This document shows positions 32,265-48,690 of a DNA stretch of 64,000 nt, piece after piece (position 1 is the stretch's first letter; each line of letters starts with the position of its first letter). The stretch comes from Synechocystis sp. LKSZ1. Its GTDB lineage: Bacteria > Cyanobacteriota > Cyanobacteriia > Cyanobacteriales > Microcystaceae. The stretch is from the NCBI RefSeq assembly GCF_040436315.1, contig NZ_AP031572.1, forward strand, positions 1,240,001 through 1,304,000, written 5' to 3'. Under the pieces are notes generated by a model. It saw nothing but the letters and a program-made list of their open reading frames with translations. It was not told the origin of the DNA and searched no databases. The position numbers were made by a program, and so were the translations under genes.

Positions 32265-32447
32265 TCCTATGAGTTTTTTTAAATGCAATCCATTTAACCA
32301 GGGGCTACGCATCTAATTTGTAAAAAGCAGATTAGACAAGGGTTTGAGAAGTTACTTGAGTTTTTCAGTAAATCCCAGAACCATTGCCAGATATGGGTTT
32401 GATAATTTAAATGCGTTTACCCTGTCCATTTAACCTGCGTTCGAGGA

Positions 32448-33950
32448 TTAGTGACTGGTAATGCCGTCCATAATTTTTTCCATTACCTGGTCAACCGTAA
32501 AGCTGGCAGCTTTTTGGCGCGGAGGAAACTCCTCAAAAGTTGAAATAAATTGAGCAACCAACGGTTGAGCCGCTAATACCAAAGGAATGTGATCAAACAT
32601 CCAATCCCAATAGGTATTCGAGGTAATATCGGCACGTTCATAGGGATCGGTGCGGAGATTGAACAGTTTTGGCACGCGCAATACGACAAAAGGTTCAGCC
32701 CAAATTTGACAAGTACCTTGTACTCGTTGTTCCATGAAAACGGTTTTCCAATGATCATAACGTAGGGCCATTAAGTTGCCATCATCACTAAAGTAGAAAT
32801 ATTCTAAGCGTGGGCTTTTTTCAACTTCTCCTTTCAGGTAAGGAACAAGGTTATAGCCATCAAGATGTACCTTGAAAGTTTTATTCCCTGCCTGATGACC
32901 CTTGAGTAGTTTTTCCTTAATCTCTGGATCACCCGCGATCGCCAGCAAAGTCGGCAACCAATCCAGATGACTGACAATTTCATTGGAGATCGTACCCGGT
33001 TCAATCACACCAGGCCAGCGAATCAGTTCAGGAACCCGAAAGGCTCCTTCCCAGTTCGTATTTTTTTCACTGCGAAAAGGAGTCATCCCTGCATCGGGCC
33101 AGGAATTCATGTGGGGGCCGTTATCGGTGCTATACATAACAAACGTATTATCCGTAATACCGAGAGCATCGAGATAATCGAGCAATTCACCCACACATTT
33201 ATCGTGGTCAATCATCACATCGTGGTATTCCGACTGCCAACGTCCCGACTGCCCTAAACTCTCAGGTTTCGCATGGGTGCGGAAGTGCATATGGGTCGTA
33301 TTAAACCAGACAAAGAAGGGAATATCGGCCTTGACTTGGCGATCGATAAAATCCTTAGCTTTCGCTAGAACTTCATCATCAATAGTTTGCATCCGCTTTT
33401 TAGTCAATGCGCCCGTATCAACAATGCTTTGGGTCCCGTCGGGGTTCGCTTTACAGTCCAGTACACCGCGTGGGCCAAAATTTTTCTTGTAATTGGGAAA
33501 ATCAGCAGCAGGAGGATAGTCTCGTAGTTCGGGTTCTTCTTCGGCGTTGAGGTGATAGAGATTGCCGAAAAATTCATCAAAGCCGTGATTAGTCGGCAAC
33601 ATTTCATCTTTATCGCCCAGATGATTTTTACCAAATTGACCTGTGGCGTAACCCATCGGTTTCAGTAATTCGGCGATCGTGGGGTCTTCGGAACGCATTC
33701 CTAAATTGGCTCCAGGCATTCCGACTTTACTTAAGCCTGTGCGAAAAACGCATTGACCTGTAATAAAAGCCGATCGCCCTGCGGTACAACTTTGTTCGGC
33801 GTAGGAATCAGTGAATAGCATTCCTTCTTTAGCAATACGATCAATATTCGGGGTTTTGTAACCCATTAAGCCATGGGTGTAACAACTGAGATTGGATTGA
33901 CCAATATCGTCACCCCAGATAATCAAAATATTGGGTTGTTTTGTTGACAT
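32448..33950 (-). CDS. Sulfatase, apparently cytosolic, motif CTAGR
   Basis: 500 residues from ATG 33950 (MSTKQPNILIIWGDD); a six-codon upstream extension is possible. Alkaline-phosphatase superfamily sulfatase: metal-binding GDDIGQSN, modification motif QSCTAGRSAFITG (cysteine codon at 33786-33788), His pair FGKNHLGD, and FVMYSTDNGPHMNSW. The cysteine would be converted to formylglycine; the third motif position is Ala rather than the usual Pro. Unlike the larger sulfatase upstream, there is no signal peptide. The substrate is not deducible. Confidence 0.88.
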   Translation of the reverse strand: MSTKQPNILIIWGDDIGQSNLSCYTHGLMGYKTPNIDRIAKEGMLFTDSYAEQSCTAGRSAFITGQCVFRTGLSKVGMPGANLGMRSEDPTIAELLKPMGYATGQFGKNHLGDKDEMLPTNHGFDEFFGNLYHLNAEEEPELRDYPPAADFPNYKKNFGPRGVLDCKANPDGTQSIVDTGALTKKRMQTIDDEVLAKAKDFIDRQVKADIPFFVWFNTTHMHFRTHAKPESLGQSGRWQSEYHDVMIDHDKCVGELLDYLDALGITDNTFVMYSTDNGPHMNSWPDAGMTPFRSEKNTNWEGAFRVPELIRWPGVIEPGTISNEIVSHLDWLPTLLAIAGDPEIKEKLLKGHQAGNKTFKVHLDGYNLVPYLKGEVEKSPRLEYFYFSDDGNLMALRYDHWKTVFMEQRVQGTCQIWAEPFVVLRVPKLFNLRTDPYERADITSNTYWDWMFDHIPLVLAAQPLVAQFISTFEEFPPRQKAASFTVDQVMEKIMDGITSH

Positions 33951-34008
33951 TTTTGATTCCCCATTCAATATTAAATCGGAACTATTCGATTATAAATTAA
34001 TAAGCGGT

Positions 34009-34446
34009 TTAGAAATCTAAAGATTTAATAATGACTCCAATAAAACTAATGAAGCCAATCACTAATAAGGCTACCCCAACAATTTCCGCGCTGTGAGACT
34101 CTTCGTAGGTATAGCGATCACGTTGAATTTGCTTCAATAATTGACGGTGTTCTTTCAATCCTAAAGCCATTCCTAACATTCCTGTGCCAATAAAAGCCAA
34201 ACCGACAATTACCGAAAATCTGACAGGATCAACGTGATGAACCACTTCAGTACGCTCAATGGTTCTCACAATTGTAGGAATGCCAAAACCAAAACCAATC
34301 AGAGATAAAGAAGTACGAATCCAAGCCATTAAGGTACGGTCAGCGGCGGCTCGACTTCTATATTTAGCCAGTTCAGTGCGATCGCTGGCTAATTCATTAG
34401 TAGAAAGTGGCTTAGAGGGTTCAGGATCCTTAGGAAATTGATTCAT
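34009..34446 (-). CDS. DUF202 membrane protein
   Basis: 145 residues. The DUF202 hallmark TELAKYRSRAAADRTLMAWIRTSLSLIGFGFGI is present in parts, with three membrane segments (near residues 48-68, 80-100 and 118-138) and the charged loop ALGLKEHRQLLKQI. In yeast Vtc1 and bacterial YidH-type proteins this fold forms small membrane subunits; bacterial function is not established. It starts 2 bp after the DUF1622 gene ends, so the two are tightly coupled. HIP1 at 34378. Confidence 0.85.
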   Translation of the reverse strand: MNQFPKDPEPSKPLSTNELASDRTELAKYRSRAAADRTLMAWIRTSLSLIGFGFGIPTIVRTIERTEVVHHVDPVRFSVIVGLAFIGTGMLGMALGLKEHRQLLKQIQRDRYTYEESHSAEIVGVALLVIGFISFIGVIIKSLDF

Positions 34447-34448
34447 AA

Positions 34449-34859
34449 TTATTGCAACAAAAATAAGGGTTTAATGCTTATAAATAATCTATGATTATTC
34501 GTTTTTTGTTGAGACTGGGATTCTAATTCTTTGGTTAAAAAATGATTTAAAAAAGTTCGGATTAGGGCGACGATTCCAAGTTTGCCTAAAGAATCAAAGG
34601 AAGAACTTAAAGTTGTAGTAAGAATATCGGCCCCTAACTGAAATTCTAAAGCCATTACCAACCACATCCCAAATTCTAGTCGGATTTGCGAAAATTTGTT
34701 TGGGCCATGATGACGATTAAGGGTGATCGCGAGTTGTCCTATTTTTACGATCCCTAAGATAATACAAAATACAGCAATAGCTTCTAGTAAGAACTTAAAC
34801 AAGGTAATAACCAGAGCTAATCCACCTTCTAAATGTTCCAATAACTCCACTAAGTTCAC
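34449..34859 (-). CDS. DUF1622 membrane protein
   Basis: 136 residues with three hydrophobic helices. The conserved core is IRLEFGMWLVMALEFQLGADIL, then LGKLGIVALIRTFLNHFL, characteristic of DUF1622. The family is uncharacterised. It lies 18 bp downstream of the BASS-type transporter gene and 2 bp upstream of the DUF202 gene, forming a three-gene membrane cassette. Confidence 0.85.
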   Translation of the reverse strand: MNLVELLEHLEGGLALVITLFKFLLEAIAVFCIILGIVKIGQLAITLNRHHGPNKFSQIRLEFGMWLVMALEFQLGADILTTTLSSSFDSLGKLGIVALIRTFLNHFLTKELESQSQQKTNNHRLFISIKPLFLLQ

Positions 34860-34877
34860 CTCATTTTCAACTAAATA

Positions 34878-35729
34878 TTAGGTTGCTATTTTCAGTTTGT
34901 GCTTATACCAAATTGAATATAAAATGCCAAAAACAGATCCTAAAATTAGGTAAGCAATCAAAGTAGGAACAACTTGCTTTTGTATGTCATTTAAAACTGC
35001 AATAAATAAGGCTAAACCGACATTACGAGCAATACAGGAAATGGCTAAAATAGACCGTTTATCTCCATCAGAGCCGCCTAAAAAATGTCCAATTGCTAGA
35101 GATATAATGACCATAATTGTGATCGCAACGAGAGGTAATCCCCAAATTTTAAACATCAAAGGAAGCCCAACAATAGAGGCTAGAATAATCACCACTAAAA
35201 ATAAACCATTGGAAACAATTGTTAACGGACGAGCGATTGCCTCTGCATACTTAGTCCCAAATTTTTGTAACAAAAGACCGAGAGAAACAGGCAAAAATTG
35301 TACTAGTGTGACTTGTCGTGCAACTTCTAAAATCTTTACTTTGTCTGGAATTCCTTGAAAGAAAACAGAAAAAATACTTAAGGTTACAGGGGTAATGATA
35401 ACGGAAAGTAAAGCCAAAGTTAATTGAAGACTGGCCGAATAGCGAAATCTGGCTCCTGCCATTTGCGATCGCTTTGTGGTTAGAGGCGCACCAGGAGAAG
35501 CGGCTAAAAAAGCTAATCCGATCATGACTTCGGAGGGTAAATGGAACAACTTGAGCAGGATAACAACGACAAGCGGAACTAGTACTGCCACTGCGAAAAG
35601 TGCGCGAAAGAGTAAAGCAGGTTTTTGCCAAAAAGAGAGCATTTTCTCTAGGGAGAAATTAACCCCTGTCGATAACATTAGAGAAAAGATGGTAGCTTTG
35701 ACAAGAAGCATTAAAAAAAGATGGTTCAT
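34878..35729 (-). CDS. BASS-type (bile acid:Na+ symporter-like) transporter
   Basis: 283 residues, 8-10 membrane helices. The overall pattern and the motifs LAASPGAPLTTKRS and ARNVGLALFIAVLN (unwound-helix crossover regions) fit the BASS/SbtA-like superfamily rather than ABC or MFS types. Members carry organic anions with Na+. Context with sulfatases suggests uptake of an organic anion or of a product of ester cleavage, but this is inference. It heads the BASS-DUF1622-DUF202 cassette. Confidence 0.72.
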   Translation of the reverse strand: MNHLFLMLLVKATIFSLMLSTGVNFSLEKMLSFWQKPALLFRALFAVAVLVPLVVVILLKLFHLPSEVMIGLAFLAASPGAPLTTKRSQMAGARFRYSASLQLTLALLSVIITPVTLSIFSVFFQGIPDKVKILEVARQVTLVQFLPVSLGLLLQKFGTKYAEAIARPLTIVSNGLFLVVIILASIVGLPLMFKIWGLPLVAITIMVIISLAIGHFLGGSDGDKRSILAISCIARNVGLALFIAVLNDIQKQVVPTLIAYLILGSVFGILYSIWYKHKLKIAT

Positions 35730-35773: not shown

Positions 35774-36316
35774 TTAGAAAGTTTGATAAAAACTCAATCT
35801 TCCCACGCCCATATCAAAGCCAATGGGATTTGGCCCCGCAGGAAACGTTGTCACGGAAAATAAATAGGTTCCTGACACTGATGGATTTTGATTAGCTTCT
35901 AAGCGAATACTAAAGCCTGTTCCTGGTGGAATGGGAGGATCGAAAATGACAGCGATCGCCTGCGTTTTGGGATCTTGGCTGGCTTTTAAAGCGAAGGCTT
36001 GCCCCTGACTATTTTGAGTGCCTTGAAAAGCAGTGGTATTCGCTAAATTAAACTGGATCGTCTGAACATTAGGTTGGGGTTGAATGGTTACTTTTCCTAA
36101 CGATTGAACAGAATTTTTAGGCAGATCAAACGTGAAATAGTAATGGGCATTGGGCCAGTTTATTCGGCTGTCGGGAGTTTCTGTTGTTACTAGGTTAGGT
36201 GGCTGACCTGTAAAAAAGGTGCTGTTTTCAGGAAAAGGTAAAGTTTGAGCGAATCCACTAGGAATAGATAAACTCAAACTGCTGATCGCGCTAATCGCAA
36301 ATACTAAGAGACGCAT
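35774..36316 (-). CDS. Secreted DUF2808 protein
   Basis: About 180 residues from ATG 36316 (MRLLVFAISAISSLSLS); an alternative GTG at 36349 overlaps the upstream gene. The signal peptide ends near GFAQT. The mature part has WPNAHYYFTFDLPKNSVQ and IPPGTGFSIRLEANQNPS, then FPAGPNPIGFDMGVGRLSFY, the GxxP-Y-G-rich end typical of the cyanobacterial DUF2808 family. Function unknown; a surface or periplasmic role is likely. Two HIP1 sites lie nearby (35465 in the neighbouring gene, 35952 here). Confidence 0.82.
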   Translation of the reverse strand: MRLLVFAISAISSLSLSIPSGFAQTLPFPENSTFFTGQPPNLVTTETPDSRINWPNAHYYFTFDLPKNSVQSLGKVTIQPQPNVQTIQFNLANTTAFQGTQNSQGQAFALKASQDPKTQAIAVIFDPPIPPGTGFSIRLEANQNPSVSGTYLFSVTTFPAGPNPIGFDMGVGRLSFYQTF

Positions 36317-36332
36317 AGAAAATTTATCACGC

Positions 36333-36944
36333 TTATCGTGCAGGGCCACCGTAACCGCCCGTCAGTCCAACCCCGCGAGTTCCTGCTCCGACTCCATGAA
36401 AACCAGGGCCAACCCCACCACCAGCACCAATCCAATCAATAAACAAAGCCGTTGCACCACCTGATTTTGGCAGTTCACCTTCAATAATTTTATACTTATA
36501 AATTAGGTCTTTGCCTTCCATCACAGGATTACTGATTTCGATCACAGCCAACGTATTTTCTTGATTGCTGCCTTCATAGACAGAGAGGGTGGCATTGGGA
36601 GGATCATTTTTAAAGTTGTCTGCCCCCGCTTTATCTGTCCATTCATCGAAATAGGCAGGCATAGTGAGATTTCCTGCTACTCGTTTCGGGCGATCAGAAA
36701 AATATAGAGTTTGGGGGTTAACATTGACTAAACGCAGGGTTTTATCTTTCGGGTTAGCCTTAAAATTTTCTGACGTTTGTACGAACATTAATTGTACTTT
36801 TTGATCAGAAGTACTTTCTTGTTTTATGGGCTTGCTCTGAGCAGAGCTAATAACAGGAAATGCCCAGGGAGTTATTGTCAATAGAGCAGTAACTAGAAAA
36901 AGAACAGGATGAGTCGAGTGTTGAATGAGTTTCATAGACTTCAT
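36333..36944 (-). CDS. Secreted conserved hypothetical with glycine-rich tail
   Basis: 203 residues. Signal peptide (LFLVTALLTITPWAFPVISSAQS). The mature domain contains TLYFSDRPKRVAGNL and NDPPNATLSVYEGSNQE, then KYKIIEGELPKSGG, motifs I recall from small secreted proteins of diverse bacteria that lack an assigned function. The C-terminal ~35 residues are Gly-rich (GAGGGVGPGFHGVGAG). It lies between the large sulfatase and DUF2808 genes on the same strand. Confidence 0.65.
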   Translation of the reverse strand: MKSMKLIQHSTHPVLFLVTALLTITPWAFPVISSAQSKPIKQESTSDQKVQLMFVQTSENFKANPKDKTLRLVNVNPQTLYFSDRPKRVAGNLTMPAYFDEWTDKAGADNFKNDPPNATLSVYEGSNQENTLAVIEISNPVMEGKDLIYKYKIIEGELPKSGGATALFIDWIGAGGGVGPGFHGVGAGTRGVGLTGGYGGPAR

Positions 36945-37036: not shown

Positions 37037-39601
37037 CTACTCGGAAACGTGATTGTTTCGTTGGGCAGATTCGAGTTTCTTGATGTCTTGCGGTGACAGT
37101 TGCGGGCGATCGAGTTTCACCGTCAACTTGTTGAGCTTGCCAGTGAAAGCGAATGGCGGCTGATAATCTGCGTCGTTAACGCCGGTCAAGGTATCGGAGC
37201 CAATGTCGAAGCTCTCGTCCCATTGCAGGATCATCGGCAGGGTCTTGGGCATCGTCTTAGTAGCCACCACATTGCCGTCAACTTTGAGCGTACCAACGCC
37301 AGGTCGTCCAACACCGGAGAAGTCATTGAAAGCAAGGGTGCCGGCCCCGAGACCATCGTACTTGAAGTCGAACTCCACAGTGTGCTTGCCAGGGGAGAGC
37401 GCCTCGGTTCCCTCCCATTTTAGTCGCTCCAGGTCAACCATATTCCAGAGCCACACCGGTTTACCCTTGAGTAGGTAAAAGCCATAGCCACCAAAGCGTC
37501 CGCCGGAGGTCAGCATGATACCCTCCGCACCACCTTGGGGCACCTCAATGTCCGCCGTGACGGAATAGGAGGTGTTGAGCAGGAGTGGTGAATCGCCCTG
37601 GGGCAGGCCGACCATCGGCCGGGTGTAAACGAACTCGCTACGGCCTGCGGTGATGTTGGGTCGAGGTGCGACGATGCGGGCCGCCACCGAGGCATCCAAT
37701 GGGAAGACCTGGTGTTTCCGGGCCTCGGCAACGAACTCCTGCCTCATTTCCTTCACCTTCTGCGGGTTTTGCGCCGCAATGTCTTGAGCTTGGGTGAATT
37801 CATTGTTCAGGTTGTAGAGCTGGAATACTTGGTTGTTGAGCGGATCGGGATTAGCGGGGCCAAATGCGTCCCAGGGAGCGCGATTTACCTTAGTGCTGAG
37901 TACCCAACCGTCCTTATATAACGCCCACTGGCCCATCATTTCAAAGTACTGAGTAGTGTGACGCGAAGGGGCCTTGGCGTTCTTAGAGTCGAAGGTGTAG
38001 AGGAAACTGGTGCCTTCAATCGGCGACTGCCGGATGCCGTCAACCACTTCGGGGGGTCGGATGCCAGCGGCTTCGAGGATTGTCGGCACGACATCGATCA
38101 CATGGACAAACTGCTGGCGCAAAGCACCTTTATCCTTAATGCGCGCCGGCCACGACACCACCATGTTCTGGTTAATGCCGCCCAGCCGCGACGCATTTTG
38201 TTTGAACCAGTCAAATGGGGTATCGAAGGCCCACGACCAGCCAGCAGACATATGGTTGTAGGTCTGCTCAGTACCCCAAACATCATAAAACTTCAGCTGT
38301 ACATCGGCGGGCAATTTATTCAAGCCATTGAAGAAAGCCACCTCGTTTGGCGTACCCAGAGGGCCCCCCTCGGCACTGGTCCCGTTGTCGCCGTTGATGT
38401 AGATGATTAGTGTGTTGTCGAGCTTGCCGAGATCCTGGAATTGCTGAACCACTCGCCCGATCTCGTGATCGCTATAGGCGGCGTAGGCGGCGAAGACCTC
38501 GACCTGACGAATGAAGAGCTTCTTCTCGTCAGCCGTGAGTTGATCCCACGGTTTCAGGATGTCACTGGGCCAGGGCGTTAACTTGGCATCCTGGGGAATT
38601 ACGCCGAGTTTCTTCTGGTTCTCAAAGATGCGTTCCCGCAGTTTTTCATAGCCGTCGTCAAACAAGTGCAGGTTGTGAATTTTATCCACCCATTCTTTGG
38701 TCGGATGGTGCGGTGCATGGGTGGCGCCAGGGGCGTACTTGATGAAGATCGGCTTGCTTGGACTGATCTGATTCATTCGCGTCATGTAGTCGATCGCATC
38801 GTCAGCCATGGCGGTGATCAGGTTCCAACTGCCTTCCTGACCCTTGAAGGGATAAATCTGCGTCGTGTTGCGGAATAGGTTGGGTTGCCACTGGTTAGCA
38901 TCGCCACCGACAAAGCCATAGAAGTACTCGAAGCCCATGCCGGTCGGCCACTGGTCAAAGGGGCCAACCTGACTGGCCTGGAACGCGGGCACATTGTGAT
39001 CCTTACCAAACCAAGCGGTGGAATAGCCGTTGTCCTTTAGTATTCGGCCAATCGTCGCTTTGTCTCGTTCAATGATGCTGTTATAGCCGGGGAAGCCGGT
39101 GGACTGCTCAGAAATCACGCCAAACCCGGCAGAGTGATGATTACGTCCGGTAATCAGCGCCGCCCGTGTCGGTGAACACAATGCCGTCGAGAACATCCGG
39201 TTATAACGCAGGCCCTCTCTGGCAATGCGATCCATGGTCGGGGTTGGAATCACTCCGCCGAAGGTGCTCGGTACGCCGAACCCAGCGTCGTCAGTGATGA
39301 TCAGCAGTACGTTGGGGGCATCCTGGGGCGGTACAATGCGGGGTGCCCACCAGGGTTTGGACTGTAGGGCATCGTCCTTGATCACCCCGCCAAATTTGGG
39401 AGCAGGAGCAGGAAGTTGCTCCCCACTGATGGACATGGTGGCACTGGGCGAACCCGGTACGCCGTTAATTTTTTGGGCGAGGACAGGAAACCACCAGAAA
39501 CTAGAGGTCATGACCATCACCAGGGAGAGAAATCCCGCAAAGATTGGCTGAAAATGACCTGGCAGGAGGTACTTCAGAAGAGATTTGAGTTTGCTGAGCA
39601 T
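37037..39601 (-). CDS. Large exported arylsulfatase with C-terminal beta-sandwich
   Basis: 854 residues. An N-terminal signal or anchor helix (FAGFLSLVMVMTSSFWWFPV) precedes the sulfatase domain: metal site ITDDAGFG, canonical formylglycine motif CSPTRAALITGR with Cys142, His of WFGKDHNVPA, and INGDNGTSAEGG. Residues ~690-845 form a beta-sandwich resembling lectin-like domains (GGRFGGYGFYLLKG, TVEFDFKYDG). The maturase FGE is encoded 52 bp upstream on the same strand. The gene looks more GC-rich than both flanks and contains no HIP1 octamer, suggesting separate acquisition. Confidence 0.92.
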   Translation of the reverse strand: MLSKLKSLLKYLLPGHFQPIFAGFLSLVMVMTSSFWWFPVLAQKINGVPGSPSATMSISGEQLPAPAPKFGGVIKDDALQSKPWWAPRIVPPQDAPNVLLIITDDAGFGVPSTFGGVIPTPTMDRIAREGLRYNRMFSTALCSPTRAALITGRNHHSAGFGVISEQSTGFPGYNSIIERDKATIGRILKDNGYSTAWFGKDHNVPAFQASQVGPFDQWPTGMGFEYFYGFVGGDANQWQPNLFRNTTQIYPFKGQEGSWNLITAMADDAIDYMTRMNQISPSKPIFIKYAPGATHAPHHPTKEWVDKIHNLHLFDDGYEKLRERIFENQKKLGVIPQDAKLTPWPSDILKPWDQLTADEKKLFIRQVEVFAAYAAYSDHEIGRVVQQFQDLGKLDNTLIIYINGDNGTSAEGGPLGTPNEVAFFNGLNKLPADVQLKFYDVWGTEQTYNHMSAGWSWAFDTPFDWFKQNASRLGGINQNMVVSWPARIKDKGALRQQFVHVIDVVPTILEAAGIRPPEVVDGIRQSPIEGTSFLYTFDSKNAKAPSRHTTQYFEMMGQWALYKDGWVLSTKVNRAPWDAFGPANPDPLNNQVFQLYNLNNEFTQAQDIAAQNPQKVKEMRQEFVAEARKHQVFPLDASVAARIVAPRPNITAGRSEFVYTRPMVGLPQGDSPLLLNTSYSVTADIEVPQGGAEGIMLTSGGRFGGYGFYLLKGKPVWLWNMVDLERLKWEGTEALSPGKHTVEFDFKYDGLGAGTLAFNDFSGVGRPGVGTLKVDGNVVATKTMPKTLPMILQWDESFDIGSDTLTGVNDADYQPPFAFTGKLNKLTVKLDRPQLSPQDIKKLESAQRNNHVSE

Positions 39602-39653: not shown

Positions 39654-40634
39654 CTAGGATGTCTCCTCTGGAGTGGCCAAACGAAACCCGATATGGGAAG
39701 TCCCGGTATCAGGGGATTGGGCCTCTCGCGCCGAGGGCCGGTAACGACTGCAATAATTTTTAGCGCAGAGAAAGGAACCGCCTTTGATAACGTGTTTAGT
39801 AACGCCGGGATCGCGGGGATCAAAGCTCTGTTTTTTGTCAGCAACCCAGGGATTAATTTTTCCCGCCAACTCATCATGGCCGGGGGCATACCAGTCTTGA
39901 GTCCACTCCCACACATTGCCGGTCATGTCGTACAGGCCGTAACCGTTAGGGGAAAAGGAAGCGACGGGAGCTGTACCTAAATAGCCGTCCTTTCGGGTAT
40001 TGGTGACTGGAAATTTTCCCTGCCAAGTATTAGCCTTTTGAGGGGAATAGGTACTACCCCAGCTAAAAACCTGGTCAGTTAAGCCCCCCCGCGCTGCGAA
40101 TTCCCATTGGGCTTCCGTTGGCAAGGATTTACCGGCCCAGGCCGCGTAGGCTTGGGCATCCTCGTAGGCGATATGAACGACAGGATGATTTTCACGACCG
40201 GTAAGGTCACTATCAGGCCCCTCCGGATGTCGCCAGTTGGCCCCAGTCACCCAATGCCACCAACTAAGTTCGGTAACGGGTTGATCGGGAGGGACGGGAC
40301 GAAACACCACCGAACCGGGTTGTCGTTCTTCCTCGCTGAGGTCAGGAAACTGTTCTACCGAAAGGGGACGTTCGGCGACCGTGACATAACCAGTTGCCTG
40401 AACAAATTGAGCAAATTGGGCGTTGGTGATTTCATGACTATCCATACAAAACGCATTCACTGTAACGGCTTCGGCAGCTCGTTCCTCTATCCATTGGTTA
40501 TCGGCTCCCATCCGAAATGTTCCCCCAGGAATGACCACCATCTCTTCAGGGCAAGCTAAAACCATTGGCTCTAGCAATAGCCAGGCAATAATCGCTAAAC
40601 CCAAAATCCATAATTGCTTCGGAAATACAGCCAT
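39654..40634 (-). CDS. Formylglycine-generating enzyme, apparently exported
   Basis: 326 residues of SUMF1/FGE fold. Family motifs: PGGTFRMGAD, FCMDSHEITNAQFAQFV, HPVVHIAYEDAQAYAAWAGK, LPTEAQWEFAARGG, GNVWEWTQDWY and the active region GGSFLCAKNYCSRYRPSARE with Cys290 and Cys295, matching the copper-binding Cys336/Cys341 pair of human FGE. It converts the cysteine of CxPxR sulfatases to formylglycine. Residues 8-28 are strongly hydrophobic and end VLAC, a loose lipobox, so the enzyme seems exported or lipid-anchored, unlike most bacterial FGEs. It lies directly upstream of the large sulfatase. Confidence 0.93.
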   Translation of the reverse strand: MAVFPKQLWILGLAIIAWLLLEPMVLACPEEMVVIPGGTFRMGADNQWIEERAAEAVTVNAFCMDSHEITNAQFAQFVQATGYVTVAERPLSVEQFPDLSEEERQPGSVVFRPVPPDQPVTELSWWHWVTGANWRHPEGPDSDLTGRENHPVVHIAYEDAQAYAAWAGKSLPTEAQWEFAARGGLTDQVFSWGSTYSPQKANTWQGKFPVTNTRKDGYLGTAPVASFSPNGYGLYDMTGNVWEWTQDWYAPGHDELAGKINPWVADKKQSFDPRDPGVTKHVIKGGSFLCAKNYCSRYRPSAREAQSPDTGTSHIGFRLATPEETS

Positions 40635-40707: not shown

Positions 40708-42048
40708 TTAAGCAATTTTTTGGATAGCGGGTGGATTCCACGTTCCATTTAAGACGGCGGGTTTAGGAGAATACAAACGCAGGGTAACTCCCAATTGACC
40801 CTGGGGAGGAGAGGGCAACCAATTCGTTTCTTGATCCTTGCCAGGGGATTGGGCTTGAATGTAAATATCCAAAGAACCATCGGCATTGTATTGCAAATTA
40901 GAGCGATCGCCTAAGGCAAAACGATTGAGGGAATTGGGGACTTGATACCCTTCGGCATCGTACATCGTAATAGACCAAAACGCCTCTACAGGAGGTAGTT
41001 CCTCTGGCTCAAAATGCAAGATATAGTTATTCTCCCCTTGTAAGGGTTTGCCCTCCGCATCACAAACATTTAAAGGATAAATGGCATCCTCAGGGCAATT
41101 TGCCCCTAAACCCACCATCGTAATAATGGCCCGTTTGAGATAATCATTCCCATACACGCCTACCGTATTGGTATTCATCTGCCAACCATTAATAACTGGA
41201 GCAAGGGTTGGCGTTTTCTCCTTCATGATCTGCAATCCATCTACTACCGCCCGTTTTAATCCAGCTTGTATGGCCGAAGAAGCATTATTAAAATCAAAAC
41301 TTTCCCCTACTTTCAGCCCAATACGCTCTAAACGGGCCAGAATAGACCAATCAGTAACGTGAGGAGTGTGTAATTTCATCAACTCTGCTCCGTAGCTGAA
41401 ATACTGTTCTGCTGTCAGGGTGTTGACCTGAGTCAGAGGATCCGTTTTCATATCTACGGTGGGATCAATTACGGTTTTGACAGGAGTAACAGTTTTACCC
41501 CATTGCGAAAGTGGCGTTAATTTAAGGCTATCCTGAAGGTGATTCACTGCTCCATAGTCTTCGACCCCATTGGTTTGAATTCGTCCAATAATCCAGAAGT
41601 AGGGCGTGGGAGACTCAATTTTCCCGACACCTTCAGGTAATTCCCCTTGCCATTTTTGCGGGACAACGGCGTAATTTTGGGCATGGGTGCCACTGGTACG
41701 CTTACCAGGAACCGCAAACACATCCGTCCACATATCCAAGAGAGGCAGAAGATAATACCGTCCCTGGGTATCTGGCAGAGACAGGATCATCGGCTCCGGA
41801 GTAATATCAACCCATGCCAGCGTATATAACGTATCGAAATTGGGACGCACGACAACTCGTAAATCGGCAGGAGGAAATTGTCGCAAACTCTGAAATTCAT
41901 TCACAGGGCCAAATCCAGGCTTTTCTCCTGATAGATAGTTGGTAAAAACCTTGCGGGATACATCCATCGTGATTAAGGGATAGAAATAGTGATAAGCCTC
42001 AATACCGATTTCATAGGCTTGTTTTTCGCTGACAAGGTTCATATTCAT
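40708..42048 (-). CDS. DUF1254/DUF1214 protein, no signal peptide
   Basis: 446 residues. The N-terminal DUF1254 domain (QAYEIGIEAYHYFYPLITMD, RPNFDTLYTLAWVDIT) is followed by a C-terminal DUF1214 domain (AFWSITMYDAEGYQVPNSLNRFALGDR, DIYIQAQSPG, LGVTLRLYSP). No signal peptide precedes the domain, unlike the second copy at 42781-44403. These proteins occur widely near sulfatases and hydrolases, but no reaction is established. HIP1 at 40913. Confidence 0.85.
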   Translation of the reverse strand: MNMNLVSEKQAYEIGIEAYHYFYPLITMDVSRKVFTNYLSGEKPGFGPVNEFQSLRQFPPADLRVVVRPNFDTLYTLAWVDITPEPMILSLPDTQGRYYLLPLLDMWTDVFAVPGKRTSGTHAQNYAVVPQKWQGELPEGVGKIESPTPYFWIIGRIQTNGVEDYGAVNHLQDSLKLTPLSQWGKTVTPVKTVIDPTVDMKTDPLTQVNTLTAEQYFSYGAELMKLHTPHVTDWSILARLERIGLKVGESFDFNNASSAIQAGLKRAVVDGLQIMKEKTPTLAPVINGWQMNTNTVGVYGNDYLKRAIITMVGLGANCPEDAIYPLNVCDAEGKPLQGENNYILHFEPEELPPVEAFWSITMYDAEGYQVPNSLNRFALGDRSNLQYNADGSLDIYIQAQSPGKDQETNWLPSPPQGQLGVTLRLYSPKPAVLNGTWNPPAIQKIA

Positions 42049-42110
42049 AGATTATTTCATCTTTTAGGAATGGATAAAAAAACGATCGCAATAGTATTAG
42101 GAAAGAAATC

Positions 42111-42144
42111 GCAATATGTATTGCTAGTCGCTTATAAAAGCGAC
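42111..42144 (-). other. Two tandem perfect hairpins between pilin-like and DUF1254 genes
   Basis: GCAATA-TG-TATTGC (42111-42124) and GTCGCTT-ATAA-AAGCGAC (42127-42144) stand two bases apart in the 105-bp gap. Neither is followed by a T run on the minus strand, so simple intrinsic termination is unlikely; an mRNA-processing or attenuation element, or a small mobile palindrome, are alternatives. Confidence 0.5.
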
Positions 42145-42153
42145 CCATGTAAC

Positions 42154-42681
42154 CTATTCATTAACCATTGATGCAGGAACTTGTACGGAGAAATCTCCAC
42201 AAATTACAGCCAGCTTAGTCGGATTATTCAGGTCAGTTCCTCTGACTAGTTGGGGATCCGCCGGCCGGGTTTGACCGGGTTGGGTATTTTGACAAATGAT
42301 AGTCGTAATTTGGGGATTTTGGCCGGGGGTAATAAAAGCGGCGCCAACGTAGGCCTTGAGTTGGCTCGACAGGGGAGATTGGGCAGGAATTAGATAACTG
42401 TAGGCAGCTTCCGAGGTAGTCCGCACCGCGTAGTCAAAGGTATTCGGTAAAGTAATACCAAAATCCTGCTGAATATTGTCAACTTGGGCTCGGAAATTGC
42501 CATTATTTTGGTAGTAGGTTCGCTGGCCCTCTGTCATTTTGGCGACAGCCTTGAGGGCCGCATTTTGGGCTTGATCCACGGAGGTATCCTGAGCAGAGAC
42601 AGGGGCCATGGCTAAAAAACTTGGTTCTGAAAAGCCCAAGACTGTCAAAGGTGTTACTGCTAGTAAAAAAAGAGAGAATTT
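42154..42681 (-). CDS. Secreted type IV pilin-like (G/H family) protein
   Basis: About 175 residues from ATG 42681 (MKFSLFLLAVTPLTVLG); 11 codons may extend upstream. The body resembles cyanobacterial type IV pilin-like G/H proteins: AAVAKMTEGQRTYYQNNG-type segment, FDYAVRTT, YLIPAQ and AYVGAAF. The N-terminus, however, is an ordinary Sec signal (ending near PVSAQD) with no prepilin GFTLVE motif, so it cannot be processed by prepilin peptidase and is probably a free periplasmic or secreted protein. It lies between two DUF1254 genes. Confidence 0.75.
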   Translation of the reverse strand, partial: KFSLFLLAVTPLTVLGFSEPSFLAMAPVSAQDTSVDQAQNAALKAVAKMTEGQRTYYQNNGNFRAQVDNIQQDFGITLPNTFDYAVRTTSEAAYSYLIPAQSPLSSQLKAYVGAAFITPGQNPQITTIICQNTQPGQTRPADPQLVRGTDLNNPTKLAVICGDFSVQVPASMVNE

Positions 42682-42780
42682 CATTAAATTTACCAATTTA
42701 CTTGATGAAGACACTGAGTAAAAACTCTAATCCTGTAAGGAATAGGAAAGCGTATGGAGACAACTCGTCAATCCAGCAGA

Positions 42781-44403
42781 TTATTTCAGTAATTCGATCT
42801 CCCCTGGTCGCCAAGTTTTGTCAAACCAAGGTTCTAATGGGCCGTAAAGCCGAAGAATCGTGTTCCAACCCGTGCCCGGAATCGTCTGCACCCAATTATT
42901 CTCCTTACCAGCGGCCGGTTTTGGCCCGAAATAGATATCCACAGATCCATCAGCATTAACCAAAAGCCCCTTCGTCTGACTACTGACACTGGGAAACTGT
43001 TGATCCGTCTGAATCTGCGATCGCGTCTGGTTGCTATAAAGAATGACTGACCAGAAATCTTTAACAGGAATATTGGGCGGTAAACGGAGACGATAACTCT
43101 TGCCACCATCGAGGAGATTACCCGTGTTATCACGGGCTGTCCAAGCATATTGAGAACCCAATCCGACCATTTTTTCTTCCATCGCAGGAGTAACCCCCGT
43201 CGCCATGAAATAGTAATAGATATAAGCATCCAGGTTCAGAACATCAGGCTGGGTTTGGAACTTATAGCCACCAATGAAAGGTAACTGCCAAGCACTGTTC
43301 GGATAGTAATAAGCCTCCTTCTGTCGATTGTGAAAGGAAATTGCCCGTGCCGTCGCATCCCCCACTGCCGCCGCTTCCGTCAGAATTTTTTTCATCCGTT
43401 CATCAGGCTTGAAAGGTTTGCCTTTTTGAATACCAATAGAGGCGTAGTAACCCAGTCGAATTTGATCGAGAGATTCACTCGGCTCTTCTTGTACCACTTG
43501 ATTGAGCAGTTCCCAGAAACGATAATCGGCAGGTGCAACCGTATTAAACGGCTTGCCCGACATATTCACAAAATTCAAAGCAGGGGGATTGTTGGCACTG
43601 TTGAGGGGATAAATTTTTGTGTTCTTTGTCACCAACTCAACCCCCGGTTTCGGGTCGCCCTTGACCAAAAAACTGCGCCAAGGAATCCAAATATTAAAAG
43701 TCGGTGATTTCACCACGTTGTAACCCGAGGGAATTTCTCCTTTGTAGCCTGGGGGTAAAAACAGGTACTTTCCGCCTTGTCCCTTATCAGGGCCAGTAAT
43801 GCCGACATCAATCACCCAGCGAAACCAAGTATCATTAACGGTTCCTAATACTTTTGGGGGAACTTCTAAGACTAACGGCCCCTTCGTCAGATCAAGCCAT
43901 GTCCAACTATAAACGGTGTTGTCATTGGCAGTCAGGAAAATTGATCGCGAATCCAAAAGTTGCTCGAAAATTGGCACAACGGTATTCACTGGCCCCAAGG
44001 TACGGATCGCGTTACGGTTGGCCGCTTGGCTAACGGCAGGTATTGCCAATAAGTAAGCTTGAACAGCCCGTTGAAAGTCGAGGTTATCGTAGAGTTTTTT
44101 CGCTGTTGCTTCGTCTGGAAAACCATCAAAGAAATTGAGCGTTCCTAGACGAGTCTCCACTTTGGCGGGTGACGCAATTCCTGGGGGGAGGGGAGTTGAG
44201 AACTTTAATTTAGGGTTGGCAGGATCACCTGTCAGAGATTGTCCGTTACTGGGGGAAGCTATCGCTATCAAGTTGGCTGTGACAATTAGCAATCCAATGG
44301 TTAGCCTGTTGAGTGATACACGCTTGTTCGTATTTTGTTTTTTGGCGAGTTGCAGTTGCTTAAACCACAGCCAATACAGGGAAGAGAAGAAATAGGAAAG
44401 CAT
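42781..44403 (-). CDS. Exported DUF1254/DUF1214 protein
   Basis: 540 residues. A hydrophobic N-terminal segment (LTIGLLIVTANLIAIASPS, residues 33-51) indicates export. DUF1254 spans roughly residues 120-250 (DNTVYSWTWLDLTKGPLVLE) and DUF1214 roughly 410-535 (KDFWSVILYSNQTRSQIQ, DIYFGPKPAAGKENNW, NTILRLYGPLEPWF). It is a divergent paralogue of the 446-residue protein downstream; the compartments differ. HIP1 at 43017-43024. No catalytic mechanism is known for the family. Confidence 0.85.
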   Translation of the reverse strand: MLSYFFSSLYWLWFKQLQLAKKQNTNKRVSLNRLTIGLLIVTANLIAIASPSNGQSLTGDPANPKLKFSTPLPPGIASPAKVETRLGTLNFFDGFPDEATAKKLYDNLDFQRAVQAYLLAIPAVSQAANRNAIRTLGPVNTVVPIFEQLLDSRSIFLTANDNTVYSWTWLDLTKGPLVLEVPPKVLGTVNDTWFRWVIDVGITGPDKGQGGKYLFLPPGYKGEIPSGYNVVKSPTFNIWIPWRSFLVKGDPKPGVELVTKNTKIYPLNSANNPPALNFVNMSGKPFNTVAPADYRFWELLNQVVQEEPSESLDQIRLGYYASIGIQKGKPFKPDERMKKILTEAAAVGDATARAISFHNRQKEAYYYPNSAWQLPFIGGYKFQTQPDVLNLDAYIYYYFMATGVTPAMEEKMVGLGSQYAWTARDNTGNLLDGGKSYRLRLPPNIPVKDFWSVILYSNQTRSQIQTDQQFPSVSSQTKGLLVNADGSVDIYFGPKPAAGKENNWVQTIPGTGWNTILRLYGPLEPWFDKTWRPGEIELLK

Positions 44404-44443
44404 CCAATTTTACCTATTGATAATTATGAAGAAAAACTAACCA

Positions 44444-45223
44444 TTAAGGGGCCGGAACCACCCGGTAATAAATGCCATTGGCCCCGTAGGACGGACTGAA
44501 CCAAACTCCGTTGTAGAGATAGTAGGTGGTATTGCCAATGGTCTGAAGCATGGCTCCCATGGGTAAGGTCGGGTAAATGGCCCCCATCGCATAAGCTGTA
44601 CTAGCGGCAGTGGCTCCGGCCGTATAACCGTCGGTATAGGCATTATTGGTGGCAGCAGTCGCTGTAGCGGCCCCAATGACGGCCCCGGTTGCAGCGGCCC
44701 CGGCCGCGGCCCAGCCGCCACAGTTATAACAGCCTGCACCATAGGTATTGACTACCGTTGGCGGATGGTAGGTGGCGTAGTCCCCCCCGTAGTAACGGTT
44801 GTAACCACCATAAACTGACGTACCGTAGGCACTAGTTCCTTGCCAATAGCCATCACCCCCCGAGGCCGTTCCGCCTCGATACCCAGTACCACTCCAGGAA
44901 CCATCACTTCCCGAGGCCGTCCCCCCGCGAAAACCATCTGCACTCCAAGAGCCATCATCCCCAGAGGCCGTCGTGCCCCGAAAACCCGTACCACTCCAGG
45001 AGCCGTCACTTCCGGAAGCGGTTCCTCCTCGATAGCCACTGGCACTCCAGGAACCATCACTTCCCGAGGCCGTTCCTCGAAAACCACTCGCACTCCAAGA
45101 GCCTCCTCCGGCATGCATCCAAGCCGTTGCGGGCCGACAAAAGAGAGGAAGCGATACAGCTGTTGCAAGGAGGCCGATGGTTAGGCTGATTACAAGCTGA
45201 TCATTGGTTTTAGGTTTAATCAT
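44444..45223 (-). CDS. Secreted Gly/Ser repeat protein with Ala-rich middle and conserved tail
   Basis: 259 residues. After a signal segment (LVISLTIGLLATAVSLPLF) come five 16-17-residue repeats of the type GSWSASGYRGGTASGSD (residues 41-124), then a Tyr/Gly-rich segment, an Ala-rich low-complexity stretch (~160-215) and a compact tail NTTYYLYNGVWFSPSYG...YYRVVPAP that looks like a small cell-wall or surface module. The start overlaps the upstream DUF2092 stop (ATGA). It is probably secreted or surface-exposed; function unknown. Confidence 0.72.
   Translation of the reverse strand: MIKPKTNDQLVISLTIGLLATAVSLPLFCRPATAWMHAGGGSWSASGFRGTASGSDGSWSASGYRGGTASGSDGSWSGTGFRGTTASGDDGSWSADGFRGGTASGSDGSWSGTGYRGGTASGGDGYWQGTSAYGTSVYGGYNRYYGGDYATYHPPTVVNTYGAGCYNCGGWAAAGAAATGAVIGAATATAATNNAYTDGYTAGATAASTAYAMGAIYPTLPMGAMLQTIGNTTYYLYNGVWFSPSYGANGIYYRVVPAP
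44852..45103 (-). repeat. Five tandem 48-51-bp coding repeats
   Basis: In-frame repeats encoding GSW-S-x-x-G-[FY]-RG-T-ASG-x-D units inside the secreted repeat protein. The unit length is a multiple of three and substitutions are mostly conservative, so these are protein repeats and not a CRISPR or intergenic array. Confidence 0.85.
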
Positions 45224-46056
45224 TGGGGTTCTCCTGATGGGGATTTAGTCTTGGCCGGGACTTTGGGCTCGGGCCGGGCAAAGGGAATGGGGGCGGCCTT
45301 TTTAAGATGGGCCGGACTAAAGGCATCGGCGGCGATCGCCGGATTCAGATCCCAGTTGCTAAATTCCACTAGATGCCGCAACCGTGAAGGATCATCTCGA
45401 TAAACCACACGCATTGCCCGAGGCAGTTTATCTTCTACGCCGATCCAGATTTGGGCAAAAACCTGATTATTAGCGATTGCCACAATATCGGTCTTCGTTC
45501 CCCCCACAATGTTGGACTGGCCGACTACAAAGGCCGTTTTCAACCCCTCCACCATGTCTTTGTAGGGATCACTGACAATCACGTCACTGAAGGGAAAGTA
45601 AATATCAGCAGTACGGTAGGCTTCCCTCAAGGCCGCATCCAAGGTTCCAGGGGCCTTGGCCATCGCCACCAAATTTTCGGCGGTCGCATAGGCCGCCATC
45701 ATGGTGCCATCGTAGTAAAACTCCGTAGCGGGGCCATCCCCTAGCGTCAAAACTTGCAATTGATTAGGACGCTGTAATGTGACCTCTGAGCGAGTCATAT
45801 AGGCCAGGGCCGGCCCAATGAGACTAGGACTTTCATAGGTTGCGATTGCTGTAAAACGCAATGATTTCGCCCCGGAGAGGCGATCACTCATGGCCTTAAG
45901 AATGGCGAGGGCCTTGGGTTCAAGGGTGACTTGGGCTGGGGACAGGGGAGTAGAAGGCTTGGTTAACGGTTGGGCCGAAGCCATCAATGGTATTGCACTG
46001 AAGACACTCAGCAGAATGGGTAGGGATAGAGAATAAAACCGGGCCAGTATCATCAT
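45220..46056 (-). CDS. Exported DUF2092 protein
   Basis: 278 residues. Signal peptide (LSLPILLSVFSAIPLMASAQP). The mature part is a LolA-like DUF2092 domain: ALAILKAMSDRLSGAKSLRF start, VTLQRPNQLQVLTLGDG, FYYDGTMMAAYA, and QIWIGVEDKLPRAMRVVYRDD. Such domains bind lipids or act as periplasmic carriers by analogy with LolA/LolB, but this family is untested. It is coupled by ATGA overlap to the downstream repeat protein. HIP1 at 45332. Confidence 0.85.
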   Translation of the reverse strand: MMILARFYSLSLPILLSVFSAIPLMASAQPLTKPSTPLSPAQVTLEPKALAILKAMSDRLSGAKSLRFTAIATYESPSLIGPALAYMTRSEVTLQRPNQLQVLTLGDGPATEFYYDGTMMAAYATAENLVAMAKAPGTLDAALREAYRTADIYFPFSDVIVSDPYKDMVEGLKTAFVVGQSNIVGGTKTDIVAIANNQVFAQIWIGVEDKLPRAMRVVYRDDPSRLRHLVEFSNWDLNPAIAADAFSPAHLKKAAPIPFARPEPKVPAKTKSPSGEPQ

Positions 46057-46114: not shown

Positions 46115-46489
46115 TTATTCTTGGGGTGGCACCAGCCCACATTCAAATAACTTGGTTAAAACCGGCGTTGCAATTTGACTGAAAAATTCCTGGGTCAATT
46201 GGGGGTCTTGGCGTAGGCGTTGGACAAAACGAGCCGTTAATTGATCTTTTAAGGTTGGGGGTTGGCCACTGCTTTGGACAGCATGTTGTTGGGCCATCGA
46301 GGCAGCCAGATCTTGACAGGAAGAACCACCAAATTTTTGAATCGTTTTCTGGGCAATCGCATTAACAACTTCTTCTGGAAGAGGATCAGAGGATTGAGCC
46401 CAAACAGCCATCGGCATCATGCTAGGAATTACAACAATTGAAACTATTACCTCAAAAAAATATGGATTTTTAAAAAATGGAAGTCTCAT
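46115..46489 (-). CDS. Small secreted protein, unrecognised
   Basis: 124 residues with an N-terminal hydrophobic signal (FEVIVSIVVIPSMMPMAVWAQ) and a helical mature part containing two cysteines (SSCQDLAASMAQQ and FECGLVP) that could form a disulfide. It resembles small periplasmic all-helical proteins. It is the first gene of the minus-strand block and is divergent from the AraC regulator. No family recognised. Confidence 0.6.
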   Translation of the reverse strand: MRLPFFKNPYFFEVIVSIVVIPSMMPMAVWAQSSDPLPEEVVNAIAQKTIQKFGGSSCQDLAASMAQQHAVQSSGQPPTLKDQLTARFVQRLRQDPQLTQEFFSQIATPVLTKLFECGLVPPQE

Positions 46490-46640: not shown

Positions 46641-47642
46641 ATGGCTCCCCCGATTCCTCTTCTTCGCGTCGTCAACCTGTCCCCCATCATCACCTTTTTA
46701 GAAGAACAGGGAACCCCCACCGAACAATTCCTACGACGGGCCAAACTCCCTGTCTATGCCTTGGATGATCCCTATACCCTCCTGCCCTGCCATCAAGTGA
46801 TTGCCTTTCTCGAAGATGTCAGCCATCAAGAAGGCATTGATAACCTCGGCTGGAGAGTGGAAAACCGGGTATCTCTGACAGAGTACGGAGCCTTTGGCCG
46901 ATTGATTTTGCAGTCCTTAACCCTGGGAGAAGCCCTCTTAACCAGTATTCGCACCTTGAGATTGTTTAATTCTGGGGTGCATTTGTGGCTACAGGTTCGG
47001 GGGGAACAGGCATGGTTTGGGCATCAATTCACGCAACTAAATGGTCTTGATTTTCCCTGCGGTATTCAAATTGCTCTGTTGTTAATGCTTGACCTAATCC
47101 AAAAAGCGGCAGGTCGTCATTGGTATCCCCAGGAAATTTACTTGCAAACCCCGCAAATCAGCAACCTGAACCATCATCCCCTCTCCTGCACCCGCATTGA
47201 CCAGACGCAAGGGTTTACTGCTATTGTTTTTCCTCGCTCCTTCCTTAGCCTGCCCTTGGGTCAGACGCCACTGGCTGATCATCAAGCCGATCTCGACCTC
47301 TTGCAATCTTTGGCCCCCGCCCTGGACTTTGTTGGTTCCCTCCAGCAGGCTCTTACACCTTTGTTGCGCGAGAATTATCCCACCATTGAGGTTGCCGCCG
47401 AAATTGCCCAAATAAGTGTGCGAACTCTACAGCGGCGACTAGCTGAAGAAGGCCTAACCTATTCCCAACTCATCTCTCGCCTCCGTTACCAGAGAGCCAT
47501 TTACTGGTTAGTCAATTCCGACCTCAAAATGATCGAAATTGCCGCCGAATTAGGCTATCAGGATGCAGCCCATTTTACTCGGGCCTTTAAGCGCTGGACT
47601 GGCGTCTCCCCCCAAGCCTTTCGGCGTGATCGCCAAAGCTAA
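46641..47642 (+). CDS. AraC-family transcriptional regulator
   Basis: 333 residues. The N-terminal ~200 residues resemble the Arabinose_bd-type effector domain found in OruR-like AraC members (LRVVNLSPIITFLEEQG, LTEYGAFGRLILQSLTLGEAL). The C-terminal double helix-turn-helix is intact (ISVRTLQRRLAEEGLTYSQ and MIEIAAELGYQDAAHFTRAF, then WTGVSPQAFRR). AraC proteins with this N-domain often respond to small hydrophobic or amino-acid-like ligands and activate adjacent divergent operons. Its position suggests it controls the sulfatase/DUF1254 block. Confidence 0.93.
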   Translation: MAPPIPLLRVVNLSPIITFLEEQGTPTEQFLRRAKLPVYALDDPYTLLPCHQVIAFLEDVSHQEGIDNLGWRVENRVSLTEYGAFGRLILQSLTLGEALLTSIRTLRLFNSGVHLWLQVRGEQAWFGHQFTQLNGLDFPCGIQIALLLMLDLIQKAAGRHWYPQEIYLQTPQISNLNHHPLSCTRIDQTQGFTAIVFPRSFLSLPLGQTPLADHQADLDLLQSLAPALDFVGSLQQALTPLLRENYPTIEVAAEIAQISVRTLQRRLAEEGLTYSQLISRLRYQRAIYWLVNSDLKMIEIAAELGYQDAAHFTRAFKRWTGVSPQAFRRDRQS

Positions 47643-48198: not shown

Positions 48199-48690
48199 TT
48201 AATTAACGGTGTAACCCCGTCCTTGCATACAAGTTGTCCAAGCACGATAGTAATTAGCTAATTGTTGTTGTTCTGCGGCTTGTAATTGAGCCTGGGCTTG
48301 AGCCTGTTGCTGTTGTTCCTCACGTCTGCGAAATAATCCAGTCAAGGCCCCTACCCCTGCACCGATAGCGGCCCCTTCCCCTACATTGCCCCCGATCGCG
48401 CCTCCAACAACTCCCAGGAGAGAGCCTCTTGCCGCGCCTTGTACCATTTGACCTTGTTGGGAGGATTGAGCTGTGGTCATTGGGGATAGTTGGGAGGGAT
48501 CCACCCCAGTTTGTTGTTTTGCCCAGCTATAGCAAGCAAAATGATCTTGTTGTTGTTGTTCCTGGGTTTGTCCTTTCGTCGGGTAGGCAAACGGTTCGGG
48601 CAATTGGGTCTGGGCCAGCGCCATCCCCTCAATGGAACATAGAAATAGAGTCAAAAAGAAACGGGATGGAACTGAAGACAACATTGTCAT
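48199..48690 (-). CDS. Glycine-zipper envelope protein
   Basis: 163 residues. A signal peptide (FFLTLFLCSIEGMALAQ) precedes a segment with FACYSWAKQQTG. A glycine-zipper stretch follows (GSLLGVVGGAIGGNVGEGAA, then IGAGVGALTGLF), then a Gln-rich helix and YRAWTTCMQGRGYTV. The FACYSWA...TTCMQGRGYTV pairing, with a conserved cysteine in each part, is shared by many proteobacterial and cyanobacterial glycine-zipper proteins of the outer envelope. Function unknown. Only 1-4 bp separate it from the downstream membrane protein gene. Confidence 0.78.
   Translation of the reverse strand: MTMLSSVPSRFFLTLFLCSIEGMALAQTQLPEPFAYPTKGQTQEQQQQDHFACYSWAKQQTGVDPSQLSPMTTAQSSQQGQMVQGAARGSLLGVVGGAIGGNVGEGAAIGAGVGALTGLFRRREEQQQQAQAQAQLQAAEQQQLANYYRAWTTCMQGRGYTVN

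Follow-up and report, generated by a model that had tools for sequence, protein, structure and literature searches.

The 3.67 Mb genome of Synechocystis sp. LKSZ1, a single contig, carries a secreted-protein and sulfatase locus in the 64,000-nucleotide stretch analyzed here (NZ_AP031572.1, positions 1,240,001 to 1,304,000; hereafter the window, from whose first letter coordinates are counted). The genome's only two genes for DUF1254/DUF1214 proteins and its only two sulfatase genes all lie in one run of co-directional genes, and the association of DUF1254 with a secreted sulfatase (SULF1) recurs in other cyanobacteria and across at least seven phyla, that with a DUF2092 protein in other cyanobacteria and in Gamma- and Deltaproteobacteria. 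The locus probably encodes a module of the cell envelope by which amphipathic or aromatic sulfate esters are bound and stripped of sulfate, its sulfatase being matured by an exported formylglycine-generating enzyme (FGE). An earlier note made from the sequence letters had proposed an undescribed surface system here; the genes it named are all present on the minus strand where it placed them, DUF1254 protein A with an export signal and protein B without. The central genes, and the regulator that bounds their run, are:

46641..47642, plus strand: divergent AraC-family regulator with Arabinose_bd and HTH_18 domains (Pfam)
45220..46056, minus strand: secreted DUF2092 protein (Pfam E 2.8e-57) with a LolA fold in its predicted structure
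44444..45223, minus strand: Gly/Ser/Ala-rich secreted repeat protein with a DUF6515-like C-terminal module (shared C-terminal profile)
42781..44403, minus strand: DUF1254/DUF1214 protein A, exported, VPA0735 type (Pfam; 3vb9 match; model)
40708..42048, minus strand: DUF1254/DUF1214 protein B, without signal peptide, VPA0106 type (Pfam; 3u07 match)
39654..40634, minus strand: FGE with an N-terminal export signal (Pfam 5e-82; 2aii match)
37037..39601, minus strand: SULF1, secreted Cys-type S1 sulfatase of 854 amino acids (Pfam PF00884 4.2e-51; CSPTR motif)

The run comprises 18 minus-strand genes from 46489 down to 25876, with intergenic gaps of -17 to 135 bp, in the order SmallSP, DUF2092, repeat protein, DUF1254 A, Pilin_GH, DUF1254 B, FGE, SULF1, SP203, DUF2808, SBF symporter, DUF1622, DUF202, SULF2, OMP618, DUF1400 hydrolase, solute-binding protein, and MscS. 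The divergent AraC gene that the earlier note had reported near its block bounds the run at the upper end, and relatives of this regulator adjoin related clusters (L025, L026, L030, L031, L032, L085). That note had drawn the block from 40708 to 46056; its genes are indeed co-directional, but the end at 40708 has to be given up, as the same-strand run continues to 25876 and takes in the second sulfatase. The run is presumably transcribed as an operon; a promoter and terminator scan of the locus returned counts not above those of shuffled sequence. Signal peptides were called throughout by eye on N-termini, with no predictor.

Among 291 cyanobacterial genomes, DUF1254 was found in 24 and SULF1 in 42, with 18 having both (Fisher p 1.4e-12, an optimistic value because many of the genomes are related). 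In 15 of these 18 the two genes lie within 20 kb of each other, against 0.37 expected. DUF1254 and DUF2092 were linked in five of eight cases in the cyanobacterial survey, and for the DUF2092 clade nearest that of the window (55-58% identical) the linkage held in all three relatives fetched (G036, G059, and G112). The same genes recur in relatives in shuffled order: a relative in the source organism's genus (G036:C54) has FGE, DUF2092, repeat protein, SmallSP, DUF1254 A, SULF1, SP203, and OMP618 in a single run; in G117 the genes are FGE, SP203, TM181, DUF2808, SULF1, SP203, Pilin_GH, DUF1254 B, OMP618, and a solute-binding protein.

An alignment of DUF1254 A was scanned against one-genome-per-species contigs, which yielded 476 confirmed relatives, and 80 loci were examined. 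These VPA0735-type loci span at least seven phyla and include Alpha-, Beta-, Gamma-, and Deltaproteobacteria, Acidobacteria, Planctomycetes, Verrucomicrobia, Bacteroidetes, Gemmatimonadetes, Cyanobacteria, and metagenome-assembled genomes labelled as methanogens. A sulfatase lies directly upstream of DUF1254 in 19 of 73 loci and directly downstream in three of 78, compared with 17 of 782 more distant slots (p 4e-9), and the odds ratio for both adjoining slots pooled against the more distant ones is 7.7; because the loci were selected by conserved peptides, this sulfatase-adjacent fraction may not be representative of DUF1254 proteins in general. SULF1 is by far the commonest neighbor family and, where present, usually lies directly upstream; it is co-directional with DUF1254 and no more than 3 kb away in 25 of the 80 loci, the next family reaching five. 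A co-directional set of four genes, SULF1, DUF1254, DUF2092, and a low-complexity protein, is present in five loci (L054, L070, L085, L111, and L121) and recurs in Gamma- and Deltaproteobacteria. The earlier note had made its proposal depend on co-occurrence elsewhere, and DUF1254 and SULF1 clearly do recur together in cyanobacteria and at least seven phyla, DUF1254 and DUF2092 in cyanobacteria and in the five loci with the four-gene set; its notion of an undescribed sulfatase-linked system is borne out by the short gaps and by the DUF1254-SULF1, DUF2092-DUF1254, and DUF2092-low-complexity links.

The claim that no member of the set has a known reaction fails for the flanking FGE and sulfatase. 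SULF1 has the sulfatase domain and the C/S-x-P-x-R motif of S1 formylglycine sulfatases, intact as CSPTR, and its metal-site residues D104/D105 and D405/N406 are invariant across 17 relatives. Its profile matches the Pseudomonas aeruginosa arylsulfatase (4cxk, E 4.7e-79) and is nearer to that enzyme than to the named glycan sulfatases of the PDB. The FGE is of SUMF1 type (human SUMF1, 2aii, E 3.1e-79), its SFLCAKNYC aligning with human SYMCHRSYC so that both catalytic cysteines are kept. A signal-like N-terminal segment is found in this FGE and its relatives at these loci, but not in the Bradyrhizobium FGE of L124. Because the FGE too carries a signal peptide, the SULF1 cysteine is probably converted outside the cytoplasm, which suggests a maturation like that in the eukaryotic endoplasmic reticulum. 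An export signal ending near A-C is common to the FGE of the window and those of several cyanobacteria (L026, L031, L032, and L039). CSPTR is found in SULF1 of most loci and SSPTR in three deltaproteobacterial SULF1 proteins adjoining DUF1254 (L070, L080, and L106); at L070, the one locus where a maturase swap was observed, the gene after DUF1254 encodes an anaerobic sulfatase maturase (TIGR03942, 489 bits, cut-off 349). Maturase type tracks active-site type, CSPTR with FGE in the window and SSPTR with the anaerobic maturase in L070, and the sulfatases of these modules are therefore apparently meant to be active; an active formylglycine seems important for the module, whichever maturase supplies it.

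Both DUF1254/DUF1214 proteins have the two domains in that order, each above the curated Pfam cut-off, as in VPA0735-like proteins. Protein A matches VPA0735 end to end (3vb9, E 2.3e-83) and its model (predicted local distance difference test, pLDDT, 88) superposes on 2p3y (Z 42.9, 2.4 Å over 452 residues), while VPA0106 is the better match of protein B (3u07, E 1.6e-31). Protein B has no signal peptide, an in-frame TAA being read by eye two codons upstream of its ATG; some of its relatives do have one. Among 53 relatives of protein A, the polar residues conserved throughout are Asn, Tyr, Trp, Arg, Ser, and Thr; neither His nor Cys is among them, so that a binding or presenting partner is likelier than a hydrolase of the classical metal or Ser-His-Asp kind. 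Outside the DUF1254 family, a fold search matched 6ans (Z 13.1), a Burkholderia protein itself without known function; the other outside matches, to MSCRAMM adhesins, carbohydrate-binding modules (CBMs), and a RetS domain, were all below Z 6 and were not used as functional evidence. PMC2744874 places DUF1254/DUF1214 in a fold class of its own, and the relevant passage of a Caulobacter iron paper gives 'Phosphatidylserine decarboxylase (DUF1254)' as an annotation only, without a test. The parts of the open-access literature consulted contained no published function for VPA0735 or VPA0106. Tandem DUF1254 genes, two or three in number, are common in other phyla (L050, L051, L117, L119, and L124) and are also seen in one cyanobacterial family (f41).

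The earlier note's description of DUF2092 as carrier-like agrees with the LolA fold of the model and with the LolA-like fold previously assigned to the family in PMC4520260. The fold is a prediction, as a sequence search of the PDB gave nothing up to E 1. The model (pLDDT 83) has as its top match the LolA-family structure 4mxt (Z 16.8, 3.0 Å over 179 residues), also resembles Xanthomonas campestris LolA (8orn, Z 15.5), and shows the predicted open barrel and helical lid of the LolA/LppX superfamily. DUF2092 is not LolA proper, scoring 14.2 bits with NCBIfam lolA against a cut-off of 112.

Its closest partner is the repeat protein. The coupling noted earlier was seen as a 4-bp overlap (ATGA) of the repeat protein start with the DUF2092 stop, not only in the window but also in Burkholderiales L049 and Methylococcaceae L054. 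In 22 of 25 DUF2092 loci, a nearby downstream gene codes for a secreted Gly/Ala/Ser-rich protein that carries a common C-terminal module (L026 and L046, both within the 25, are the same locus; one counted partner runs partly off its contig, and of the remaining loci two have no partner and one is cut off). The window's repeat protein fits the shared C-terminal profile with E 8.8e-23, being itself among the members from which the profile was built; it has no Pfam match and does not reach the cut-off of PF20125 (DUF6515), which some partner proteins used in the profile do pass. Several DUF2092 partners are recognized as DUF6515. Independently, a survey of 120 genomes gave 16 DUF6515 matches, of which 15 are no farther than 1.7 kb from a DUF2092 gene and the sixteenth is on another contig. 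A second DUF2092 and DUF6515 pair is found in the source genome at about 2.08 Mb (G000, L036), far from any sulfatase. A 98-amino-acid open reading frame at L025:11230-11526 begins much as the window's DUF2092 protein does and continues into the repeat protein's C-terminal module; it appears to be what a deletion left of such a pair.

The remaining members of the run, and one gene beyond it, are:

46115..46489, minus strand: SmallSP, small secreted protein of 124 amino acids, first in the run (relatives at other loci)
42154..42714, minus strand: secreted Pilin_GH-domain protein without prepilin motif (Pfam PF16734 5.3e-17; motif test)
36333..36944, minus strand: SP203, small secreted protein (relatives at other loci)
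35774..36349, minus strand: DUF2808 secreted protein (Pfam 4e-46)
34878..35729, minus strand: SBF/BASS-type organic anion:Na+ symporter (Pfam SBF 7e-18)
34449..34859, minus strand: DUF1622 membrane protein (Pfam 6e-24)
34009..34446, minus strand: DUF202 membrane protein (Pfam 7e-16)
32448..33968, minus strand: SULF2, second Cys-type sulfatase (CTAGR), without signal peptide (Pfam 9e-47; motif; N-terminus)
30456..32312, minus strand: OMP618, outer-membrane-type protein with coiled-coil insert (relatives; Pfam matches weak only)
28714..30375, minus strand: DUF1400 alpha/beta-hydrolase (Pfam)
27261..28604, minus strand: solute-binding protein (Pfam)
25876..27243, minus strand: MscS channel, last gene of the run (Pfam)
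48199..48690, minus strand: secreted Gly-zipper protein, probably a satellite of this module (similar proteins in L028 and L054)

The Pilin_GH protein, encoded immediately before DUF1254 B both here and at L028, L031, and L032, had been described as pilin-like. A type IV pilin identity was rejected: no prepilin cleavage motif is present in the window protein or five relatives, and its N-terminus is ordinarily signal-like. A pilin system was likewise rejected, no other pilus gene being found among the scanned proteins. Relatives of SmallSP occur in L025, L026, and Burkholderiales L049, there directly upstream of DUF2092; those of SP203 adjoin SULF1, FGE, or DUF1254 in L026, L031, L032, L033, and L048; and those of OMP618 are found in L025, L026, L028, L031, L032, and L033. 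The group of SULF2, DUF202, DUF1622, and SBF/BASS genes (32448-35729) is conserved in several cyanobacterial families (L028, L031, L042, and L044), the symporter adjoining SULF2 in L028 and L044, and an anaerobic sulfatase maturase (TIGR03942) lies near SULF2 in G036 (L042). The Gly-zipper protein may be a further module component: the L028 cluster has a 78% identical relative (L028:8976), a similar protein is encoded two genes upstream of SULF1 in L054 (L054:6165), and secreted proteins of this kind recur near SULF1 or directly after DUF2092 (also L040:9868).

Taken as one module, these genes would work as follows. The AraC-type regulator probably turns on the long minus-strand operon; SULF1 would be exported, its active-site cysteine probably made formylglycine outside the cytoplasm by the FGE, and the mature enzyme would strip sulfate off an exogenous ester. 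DUF1254/DUF1214 A may work alongside SULF1 in that compartment, on its substrate or its product, probably as a binding or presenting partner. DUF2092, a putative LolA-like carrier with a hydrophobic pocket, and the secreted protein encoded next to it may form a dedicated chaperone and client that trap or hand over amphipathic material at the outer membrane. SBF proteins are a family of organic-anion carriers, and the symporter, DUF202, DUF1622, the signal-less SULF2, and perhaps DUF1254 B could constitute an inner half that imports and desulfates the ester or a fragment of it. An amphipathic or aromatic substrate, rather than a polysaccharide, is suggested by the likeness of SULF1 to an arylsulfatase, the LolA-type fold of DUF2092, the presence of an SBF symporter, and a Phenol_MetA_deg outer-membrane protein encoded after DUF1254 in Rhizobiales L076.

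Several observations weigh against such a module. About two thirds of DUF1254 loci are without SULF1 within 3 kb, so that the partnership is not obligate, and in several cyanobacteria the two genes are 10-18 kb apart. Trees of adjacent DUF1254/SULF1 pairs agree weakly (r 0.20, a value equalled or exceeded in 211 of 5000 permutations), from which it follows that the pairs have been reshuffled. The lack of conserved His and Cys comes from an alignment selected by conserved peptides, and the DUF1214 region weakly resembles CBM4/CBM28 sugar-binding domains (Z <5), which is compatible with a glycan. The weak tree agreement would also be expected if DUF1254, DUF2092, and the sulfatases belonged to an exchangeable island of envelope genes and shared regulation and transfer rather than a biochemical pathway, as would the shuffled order and content among relatives and the presence of DUF2092 with its partner and DUF1254 without a sulfatase in L025, L027, and L030. 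However, the excess of sulfatases in the directly adjoining slot over the rest of the flanks, in at least seven phyla, and the match of maturase to active site in the L070 module make mere cohabitation distinctly improbable. It is possible, though on the unlikely side, that two separate systems adjoin here, a sulfatase unit of SULF1, FGE, and DUF1254 and an independent DUF2092/DUF6515-type chaperone-client unit; DUF2092 and its partner do stand alone in many genomes, including at the second place in the source genome, but the DUF2092 clade nearest the window's is consistently linked to DUF1254, and both units stand together in the five loci with the four-gene set.

The resemblance to sugar-binding domains bears on a further alternative, in which the sulfatases reshape sulfated slime made by the cell itself or salvage sulfated algal glycans, DUF1254/DUF1214 binds carbohydrate, and the repeat protein is matrix, as Gly/Ser-rich secreted proteins often are. 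Sugars are targets of many S1 sulfatases (PMC5066984, PMC10154612), and sulfated extracellular polysaccharides (EPS) are present in cyanobacterial mats according to PMC9723792. A polysaccharide substrate is possible, yet no glycoside hydrolase, polysaccharide lyase, or SusC/D was found among the 20 window proteins scanned by Pfam, and identification as a polysaccharide utilization locus was rejected for want of carbohydrate-active enzymes (CAZymes) or SusC/D import among them. The closeness of SULF1 to the arylsulfatase profile argues in the same direction, as does the L076 outer-membrane protein, and a LolA-fold carrier beside an SBF symporter would point to amphipathic organic anions, so that a sulfated-polysaccharide module appears quite doubtful.

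Structures of DUF1254/DUF1214 proteins have been available since 2007 with no function in the searched literature, and the sulfatase link offers a direct and cheap test, while the near-obligate pairing of DUF2092 with DUF6515-like proteins gives a second handle on two unnamed families. Families known so far only by structure or by name thereby become testable as parts of one sulfate-ester system, which, if true, would be a widespread and unrecognized route to sulfur from, or processing of, organic sulfate esters at the cell envelope. A bolder proposal, rather unlikely in our estimate, is that DUF1254/DUF1214 proteins are an unrecognized catalyst or substrate-presenter that one class of secreted sulfatases requires, and DUF2092/DUF6515-like pairs a dedicated LolA-type chaperone with its low-complexity client, jointly a widely transferred capture system for sulfate esters.

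Sulfatase clusters with maturases are already known; for the association of a sulfatase with DUF1254, DUF2092, and DUF6515-like proteins, no description was found in the portion of the open-access literature searched, subscription papers lying outside that search. SULF1 resembles AtsA (PDB 1hdh, 4cxk; SulfAtlas S1_4) in its S1 profile, CSPTR motif, and accompanying FGE, but has about 300 additional C-terminal residues, a Sec-type signal, and the DUF1254/DUF2092 partners, and unlike in the arylsulfatase/FGE system, the FGE of the window itself carries a signal peptide. With sulfatase-rich polysaccharide utilization loci the run shares the clustering of sulfatases, a maturation enzyme, and an outer-membrane protein, without the CAZymes or SusC/D in the scanned block of the window. 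DUF2092 has the modeled fold of the LolA, LppX, and RseB carriers (Z 16.8), but sequence identity to them is only about 7-17%; its companion is a low-complexity secreted protein, and neither LolB nor LolCDE genes were seen beside it. Finally, protein A fits VPA0735 and protein B fits VPA0106, both structural-genomics targets (2p3y, 3vb9, 3u07), but the DUF1254 proteins of the window stand beside sulfatases.

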